Shown here one piece after another: positions 29,957 to 32,787 of a stretch of DNA of 35,995 nt. The stretch is from Steroidobacteraceae bacterium (GTDB lineage Bacteria > Pseudomonadota > Gammaproteobacteria > Steroidobacterales > Steroidobacteraceae): positions 1-35,995 of the forward strand of contig DAIDVO010000030.1 of assembly GCA_027456085.1 (NCBI GenBank), written 5' to 3'. Within the stretch, counting starts at the first letter, position 1, and the number at the start of each line of letters is the position of its first letter. The notes under the pieces were generated by a model, which was not told where the DNA came from, ran no database searches, and worked only from the letters and a program-made list of their open reading frames with translations. The position numbers were made by a program, and so were the translations under genes.

Positions 29957-30586
29957 TCAACCGCGCCAATGGCGCCACGCGCCGGTATCCATGTGCACGA
30001 AATTGGAAACCCGGTAGTAGCCGACGCCGCCCAGCTTTTGTTTGAGCGCCGTGGCCGCGAGCTCCGCGCAATTGACGCCATTGATCCGCACGTCGATCGC
30101 GCGCCCCTGCATGTGGAGGCTGTGCAGCGCGACGCCGTGGCTGCGTTCATGCAGCATCTCGTTGGTCGCGGGCGAGCGGTAGCCGGATATCACGTGAAAC
30201 TCCGGAGCGACGCCGACCGCGCCCGCCACATGGTGCAGATAATCCATCAAACCGGGATCGATCGGGTGCAGGTCGCCGTTGCGAAAATCGCGCAGCACAT
30301 GTTCGATCTGCGCCATCGCGGATGCAACGTATGCCTGATCCCGATAAAACTCGACATCCAGATCCTCGCCGGTATGCAGATTCATCAGCACGATGCGCTT
30401 CGACGTCGACGCGGCGGCTGCGGCGGCCGGATCCGGCGGGATCGGCGGCGCGTATCGGGACTGCGGCGCGAACGCCGCTGAGCGCGCAAGCGCCGCGCTG
30501 CGCACCGGCCCCGCAATTACACCGGCGCCGACCGCGCAGGCCGCGAGGCTGCCAACTTTCAGGAAACGGCGGCGATCCATCGTCAT
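29957..30586 (-). CDS. YcbK/DUF882 (peptidase M15-like) protein with Tat signal
   Basis: Twin-arginine RRRFLK; EFHVISGYRSPATNEMLHERSHGVALHSLHMQGRAIDVRI; ATGA overlap with upstream gene. Confidence 0.88.
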   Translation of the reverse strand: MTMDRRRFLKVGSLAACAVGAGVIAGPVRSAALARSAAFAPQSRYAPPIPPDPAAAAAASTSKRIVLMNLHTGEDLDVEFYRDQAYVASAMAQIEHVLRDFRNGDLHPIDPGLMDYLHHVAGAVGVAPEFHVISGYRSPATNEMLHERSHGVALHSLHMQGRAIDVRINGVNCAELAATALKQKLGGVGYYRVSNFVHMDTGAWRHWRG

Positions 30587-31779
30587 TGATGACCTCGACT
30601 GGATATGAGCCGCCCGCGATCGAGCGCGAGCACGGTCGCTTTCGGGAAAAAATTGAAATCGGAGGCCGAAGCCCAGGTGTACGCGCCCATCGAGCGCCCC
30701 AGGATGAGATCACCGATTTCCAGCTTGGGTAATTCCATGTTCTCGTCAATCACATCGATACTGTCACATGTGGGACCGGCAAGAACCGACGAAAATCGTT
30801 CCCCGCCCTTCACCAGCGCGTCGATGAGGTAATGCGCGTGGTCGAACAGAAGGCCGTTGTACGAGCCATATACTACATCGTCCGGATAGTACCACCATCG
30901 TCCGCCGCGTTGCGCACGGCCCATCACCGAGGCGACGGCAACCGCTGCCGGAGCGGCAATGAAGCGCCCAGGCTCCGCGATCACCCGCAAGCCTCGCGCA
31001 AGCTCGCGCAAAGCTCTGCGCAATGGCGCACAGAATTCTTCGATCGGCGCCGCCGCCTGCCGATAGTCGACCGGAAATCAGCCGCCGATATCGAGGATTC
31101 GCATGTGCAGACCCCGCGCCGCGGCGCGGCGCAGCAAACCTGCGCACGCGCGGATCGCCTCGACATGCGTATCAGGTCCGCTCGCCTGCGACCCAACGTG
31201 AAACGATAAGCCGGCGACGCGGATGCCGAGCCCCGCGGCGAGCGACATCAGCTCTTCCGCAGCCTCGGGCCCGCAACCGAATTTGCGCGACAAATCGCAA
31301 ACGGCGTCTGGGCTTCTGAACGAAATTCGGATCAAAAGTTCCGCGCGATGGCGCACCTGCGCGAACTTTCGCACTTCGTCCTCGTTGTCGACGACGAAAA
31401 TGCGCACGCCGAAGGCCAAGGCCGTGCGGATATCGCCGTCCCGCTTGATCGGGTGCGTATGAATACAGCGGTCCGGCGCGACCCGCGCGCGCCGCACCAT
31501 ATCGATTTCCCCGTTGCTCGCCAAGTCGAAGTAGGCGCCCTGCGCGAGCAGCGTTTCGACGACCGATTGGTGCGGCAATGGCTTCAGTGCGTAATGTAAA
31601 TCGACGCCCGGAAGAGCCGCCGCGAGCCTTCGATACTGGCCGCGCACGCGCTCGGCGTCGATGACGAGCAGCGGCGAGCCATAGCGCTGCACGAGATGCC
31701 GTATCGAGTCTTCGGAGAACGGGTCCTGCGCCGGATCGAGTTCCAGTTCGCGCGCAGCCCCGGTTTCATGACGCAGCAA
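30583..31779 (-). pseudogene. fold-III PLP-dependent (ornithine/lysine-type) decarboxylase interrupted by one in-frame TGA (31078-31080); nonsense allele or recoded gene
   Basis: Track ORFs 31078..31779 and 30583..31023 are in one frame (398 codons plus stop); manual reading across gives ...HYALKPLPHQSVVETL...SFHVGSQASG...RILDIGG*FPVDYRQAAAPIEEFCAPLRRALRELARGLRVIAEPGRFIAAPA...DVVYGSYNGLLFDH...AGPTCDSIDVI... Confidence 0.88.
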
Positions 31780-31797: not shown

Positions 31798-32787
31798 CTA
31801 GCCGGCGCCGGAGTCGGCCGAGGCCGCGCCCAAGCCGCCGGCTCTGCGCAGGCGGTCGATCACCGCGGTCCAGCGCTCGTCCGCCGGCGGCGCCTGCACG
31901 AAGATCCTCATGCTGCCTGCGCGATCCAGGGTACGCAGGTGGTTGTAGAGATTATGCGCGTAAGCGTCGGCCTTCTTGCCGGCGTTGATCCAAGTCAAGT
32001 AACGCTGCGCATGCATCGGCGCGCGCATTGCCAAGACGGCGACTTTCTCACCGCGTTCGGCAAACTCGGCCGCACGCGCTTCCAGCTCCTCGGACTCGAT
32101 GATTTCGAGCGGCGTCAACGGCGCGTAATGTGAGCCTCGATCGCCGGGAGATCTCGGTGCATCGCCGGCCTCGGCGAGCGTGCCGACGACCTTTTCAATC
32201 TGCGTACGCGTAATGAATCCGGGACGCAGCAAGCGCACAACGTTGCCCAGACACGAAACGATCGTCGACTCGAGGCCTATCTGCGACTCGCCGCCGTCGA
32301 GCACGACCGGCAAAGCGTCGCCGAACTCCTCGCGCACGTGTTCTGGCCTCGTCGGGCTCAAGCGGCCGTAGCGATTCGCCGACGGGGCGGCGATTCCGCC
32401 GCCGAAGGCCGTCAACAATTGCAGCGCGATCGGATGCGCCGGTATGCGAATGCCGATGCTGTTCTGGCCGCCGCTGACGACCGTATTGACGTCGTCCGCC
32501 TTTGGCAGAATCAAGGTCAGGGGACCCGGCCAAAACTCCGCGGCCAGACGTTCGGCCGCGGGCGGCATCTCGCGCACCCAGCGGTGCAAATAGCGCGGAT
32601 TGTCGAGGTGCACGATGACCGGGTGATCCGCGGGCCGGCCCTTGAGTTCGAATATACGGACGACGGCCGCCGGATCCGCCGCATTGGCGCCGAGTCCGTA
32701 AACGGTTTCCGTCGGAAACGCGACCAGCCCGCCGGCACGCAAAGTTTCGACGGCTTCTTCTATTTCAGTCTGTGTCGCTCTTACCAC
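31798..32787 (-). CDS. L-threonylcarbamoyladenylate synthase (Sua5/TsaC family, long form)
   Basis: TLRAGGLVAFPTETVYGLGANAADPAAVVRIFELKGRPADHPVIVHL; SIGIRIPAHPIALQLL; IGLESTIV; C-terminal Sua5 domain (PRSPGDRGSHYAPLTP). Confidence 0.93.
   Translation of the reverse strand: MVRATQTEIEEAVETLRAGGLVAFPTETVYGLGANAADPAAVVRIFELKGRPADHPVIVHLDNPRYLHRWVREMPPAAERLAAEFWPGPLTLILPKADDVNTVVSGGQNSIGIRIPAHPIALQLLTAFGGGIAAPSANRYGRLSPTRPEHVREEFGDALPVVLDGGESQIGLESTIVSCLGNVVRLLRPGFITRTQIEKVVGTLAEAGDAPRSPGDRGSHYAPLTPLEIIESEELEARAAEFAERGEKVAVLAMRAPMHAQRYLTWINAGKKADAYAHNLYNHLRTLDRAGSMRIFVQAPPADERWTAVIDRLRRAGGLGAASADSGAG

Follow-up and report, generated by a model that had tools for sequence, protein, structure and literature searches.

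Does an isolated in-frame TGA in a decarboxylase gene of a Steroidobacteraceae bacterium signal recoding of UGA, the recent loss of the gene, or an error in the assembled sequence? The window analyzed here is the whole of contig DAIDVO010000030.1 (C30; 35,995 nucleotides), which belongs to a draft metagenome-assembled genome (2.46 Mb, 204 contigs, 81% complete). The evidence discussed below makes a single-base consensus error in this draft genome, within an ordinary decarboxylase gene, the most likely explanation, with a probability of roughly 70%. The relevant features of the window are the following.

30583..31779, minus strand: fold type III lysine/ornithine decarboxylase, frame interrupted by a stop (reading-frame translation, Pfam domains, PDB match)
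31078..31080, minus strand: in-frame TGA at codon 234, the third Gly of LDIGGGFP (sequence and aligned homologues)
31043..31064, minus strand: 6-bp inverted repeat 3′ of the TGA, ordinary and not conserved (sequence, folding, orthologue check)
30883..30885, minus strand: CCG, the private substitution L299P within WWYYLDDG (homologue alignment)
30874..30876, minus strand: GTA, the private substitution G302V within WWYYLDDG (homologue alignment)
31798..32787, minus strand: L-threonylcarbamoyladenylate synthase (Sua5/YwlC type), the intact upstream neighbor (homology, Pfam, congener synteny)
29957..30586, minus strand: MepK-like (DUF882) protein, the downstream neighbor, with its start within an ATGA overlap (homology, Pfam, congener synteny)

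The decarboxylase frame (31779-30583) comprises 399 codons, that is, 398 residues and the stop, and contains neither an indel nor a second internal stop. The minus strand around the interruption reads GAT ATC GGC GGC TGA TTT CCG GTC GAC; the TGA inside an otherwise intact frame that was reported in the first-pass annotation is indeed present in the assembly, at 31080-31078. The terminal TGA of the frame overlaps the ATG of the next gene (ATGA at 30586), as had also been noticed. The first candidate start is a TTG at 31779, after an upstream stop, with no in-frame ATG between 31779 and 31797, and an obvious ATG start is missing at the same place in several congeners as well. The gene neighborhood is kept in the genus: a Sua5 homologue immediately precedes the decarboxylase and, in many congeners, a MepK-like gene immediately follows it.

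The assignment to the PLP decarboxylases made from the sequence alone is borne out by Pfam matches on either side of the stop, in one and the same frame (PF02784, the barrel, before it and PF00278, the sheet domain, after it), and by the nearest solved structure, the lysine/ornithine decarboxylase of Vibrio vulnificus (2plj). The motifs that carry the active-site Lys, His, Glu and Cys (YALKP, SFHVG, EPGR and GPTCDS, respectively) are all found in the translated frame in alignment with 2plj. The interrupted gene accordingly belongs to the fold type III lysine/ornithine decarboxylases, with substrate and activity predicted from this similarity. It shares with the V. vulnificus enzyme the domains and the motifs YALKP, SFHVGSQ, LDIGG.FP, EPGR and GPTCDS, but differs from it in the TGA that replaces Gly234 and in the substitutions L299P and G302V within WWYYLDDG.

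The residue replaced by the TGA is invariant. Gly occupies this position in all 29 aligned family orthologues (one per genome, 20 of the genomes being congeners), where it is encoded by GGC, GGG, GGA or GGT, and none of the 29 contains an internal stop. The same column holds Gly, and never a stop, TGA or Cys, in 80 of the 80 genome_contigs homologues found with an alignment-based scan, a set that overlaps heavily with the genomes of the 29 orthologues. The third Gly of GGGFP thus stands as the site affected, GGA to TGA remains the simplest change, and the alignment with sister genomes shows the TGA to be private to this assembly. The named homologues come mainly from uncultured Gammaproteobacteria and Steroidobacteraceae; one, in CAMCBU010000006.1, is titled Klebsiella pneumoniae, probably a mislabel, and groups with Steroidobacteraceae-type homologues (L144).

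Several apparent disruptions in relatives were discarded. The orthologous frames of congeners G001 (L154, contig C16) and G011 (L155, contig C74) appear broken, but the splits are scaffold gaps of 2 and 10 N rather than frameshifts, a TAG in congener G020 sits just 5′ of the ATG start of its gene, and the stops in sister matches of the LysA-like gene, situated at the distal ends of the matched regions, resemble terminal stops.

Among known systems, UGA is recoded as selenocysteine with the help of a SECIS element and is read as Gly in some CPR bacteria. The present case resembles such systems in that an in-frame TGA, at a Gly position, is flanked on both sides by conserved sequence; decoding of UGA at codon 234 could then involve selenocysteine, a UGA-reading tRNA-Gly, or programmed readthrough aided by the downstream hairpin. 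The stem itself does exist, as described in the first-pass annotation, with the arms ATCGGC (31064-31059) and GCCGAT (31048-31043) located 13 nt past the TGA, but it carries no signal: the folding energy of the region, −14.6 kcal/mol, is no lower than the mean of its shuffled versions (−15.2 kcal/mol, z = +0.24), a perfect 6-bp stem with a loop of 3-12 nt turns up in 16% of 50-nt stretches drawn at random from the same genome, a comparable stem is lacking at the site in all but 3 of the 29 intact orthologues, and there is no Rfam match at E-values up to 1.

A search of the assembly for the decoding machinery failed to find selA, gave nothing above the cut-off for selB or tRNA-Sec, and revealed no UCA anticodon among 31 of the 32 tRNAs, an absence that is not absolute, the assembly being incomplete. 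Of the 23 congeners searched, only G001 encodes a SelB that scores above the curated cut-off (L070, G001:C119:9338-11212), a point that could be counted in favor of decoding. Against it, no homologue has TGA, Cys or Sec at the invariant Gly, and TGA is the main stop of this genome, terminating 389 of the 641 gene-like frames in the sample, in agreement with its earlier description as a normal stop. Furthermore, other genes of the assembly are interrupted in the same manner by TAA and TAG, which would be of no use to any UGA decoder. A literature search for readthrough in metagenome-assembled genomes yielded nothing pertinent. Given the ordinary hairpin, the machinery not found and the use of TGA as the main stop, decoding of UGA at this site is very unlikely, so that the first-pass skepticism regarding selenocysteine or other recoding appears justified.

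A more serious competitor is a genuine recent nonsense mutation, under which the gene would be a young pseudogene encoding a 233-residue fragment devoid of the rest of the barrel and of the C-terminal sheet domain, and might no longer be translationally coupled to the MepK-like gene. The principal evidence for this reading comes from the two radical private substitutions, L299P and G302V, at columns that are invariant across the 80 homologues. The decarboxylase deviates at 3 of 103 invariant columns, compared with 3 of 441 for four neighbor genes, and only one other among 84 distinct homologues has three such private changes, with 68 of the 84 having none. These two substitutions, of a kind also expected in a gene undergoing decay, keep the young pseudogene alive as a rival; they could be either real decay or further errors, and G302V (GTA) likewise fits a G to T change, GGA to GTA. 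On the opposite side, the frame shows neither an indel nor a second stop, and branch lengths are ordinary and give no indication of accelerated evolution or long-term relaxed constraint. Moreover, no other gene of the same function was detected in the 81% complete assembly: a search for the Orn/Arg decarboxylase fold found, besides this gene, just one LysA-like gene, with no second lysine/ornithine decarboxylase, and no fold-I decarboxylase was found either. If the stop were genuine, the sole lysine/ornithine decarboxylase found in the assembly would be lost.

The observation that weighs most heavily against a nonsense mutation is that the decarboxylase is not the only gene so interrupted. A coding-potential scan with homology checks, covering 445 kb and then 957 kb (39% of the genome), revealed in the 957 kb sampled at least nine further conserved genes with one isolated in-frame stop each, at Glu, Asp or Gly positions.

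NadE: in-frame stop, Glu in PDB relatives
DksA: in-frame stop, Glu in PDB relatives
PQQ dehydrogenase: in-frame stop, Glu in PDB relatives
TrmL: in-frame stop, Glu in PDB relatives
SMC: TAA, sister codons GAA or GAG
Cys/Met PLP enzyme: TAG, sister codons mostly GAG
PutA: TAA, E in the sister protein
TldD: TAG, D in the sister protein
hydrolase: TGA at the expected Gly of a GYSEGG motif, with Gly inferred from the motif

Taken as one set, these nine stops are located at L174:7644, L173:4900, L173:3472, L170:5615, L255:15818, L244:17114, L268:998, L191:3046 and L164:3857. Candidate stops in seven more genes, those for IleRS (L193), PDH E1-alpha (L252), a histidine kinase, YicC, an ABC transporter, an outer-membrane efflux protein and a PHP protein, were left out of the count because the residue replaced is uncertain. 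With the decarboxylase included, the ten interrupted genes contain all three kinds of stop (TAA, TAG and TGA), which is what the search for further in-frame TGAs proposed in the first-pass annotation brought to light in core genes. As a control, the same coding-model scan was applied to 800 kb of the better assembly of congener G007 and gave nine candidates, all of which read as gene junctions; in a reverse blast comparison (G000 frames against G007), antisense shadow frames dominated the matches. Like stops are thus found in core genes of this assembly and are absent from the 800 kb scanned of the better congener assembly.

Some of the interrupted genes are nearly indispensable to the cell. 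NadE is uninterrupted in most of the congeners examined (it is split between contigs in G005 and was not found in G002), and the assembly contains no second copy, the only other hit being a weak match to a carbon-nitrogen hydrolase. For these reasons, fixation of the NadE stop in living cells is hardly conceivable, and an error of the consensus or damage to the DNA is the simplest explanation for all the stops. We infer that the ten stops are errors or ex vivo damage rather than mutations fixed in a living population, and the decarboxylase TGA appears to belong to the same class as the other nine. Scaled by length, the observed rate implies about 0.4 such stops per window of this size, so that one stop is unremarkable.

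All ten stops can be explained by a single G to T change on the coding strand, from GAA, GAG or GGA. Codons one step away from a stop number, per thousand, about 60 for coding-strand G to T, 47 for C to A, 40 for C to T and 12 (TGG) for G to A. Natural mutation is rich in transitions, and a spectrum of ten G to T changes in ten is accordingly unlike it. The same spectrum also counts against random error: none of the ten stops derives from a C to A change in a Ser, Tyr or Cys codon, an outcome with a probability of about 0.003 if changes were random (calculated by hand from codon frequencies). The numbers behind this lack of C to A are small. The interrupted genes are split five and five between the contig strands, so contig orientation does not explain the bias. 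The list of ten was in part recognized by eye among the candidates, which may bias the spectrum; the four cases that come from homology alone (PutA, TldD, the Cys/Met enzyme and the decarboxylase) agree with G to T. No general excess of G to T was seen among missense differences from G007, which likewise speaks against base error, but real divergence swamps this comparison.

G>T artifacts caused by oxidative damage or read error in sequence data are described in PMC12390751, and the stops reported here resemble them as isolated single-base G to T (C to A) changes without biological meaning. They differ from the artifacts covered there in being known from the assembled consensus alone and in looking biased to the coding strand. 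This bias leaves a small chance that the ten stops reflect genuine damage, biased by strand, to the DNA of the cells that were sequenced, the assembly then recording DNA decay in nature rather than random reading error; for example, 8-oxoguanine might have stayed unrepaired in dormant or dead cells in which the transcribed strand was repaired.

On balance, the consensus error is preferred for the decarboxylase because like single-base stops are scattered over core genes of the same assembly, and it is further favored by the private nature of the TGA, the ordinary branch length of the gene and the lack of another decarboxylase of the same function among those found. In this scenario, a G would have been misread as, or damaged to, T, turning GGA (Gly234) into TGA; low read depth behind such errors is a guess. 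The first-pass annotation had ranked a recent nonsense mutation above base error, an order that is reversed by the isolated stops at conserved Glu and Gly codons across the assembly, which leave the young pseudogene a clearly less probable, though still credible, alternative.

A lone in-frame stop in a metagenome assembly can easily be mistaken for recoding or for a pseudogene. In this assembly the background of single-base stops in unrelated core genes is high enough to explain the TGA of the decarboxylase, and the background stop rate of a draft genome should be gauged before any single stop is interpreted. The true gene of the organism very probably has Gly at position 234 and would encode an ordinary lysine/ornithine decarboxylase.
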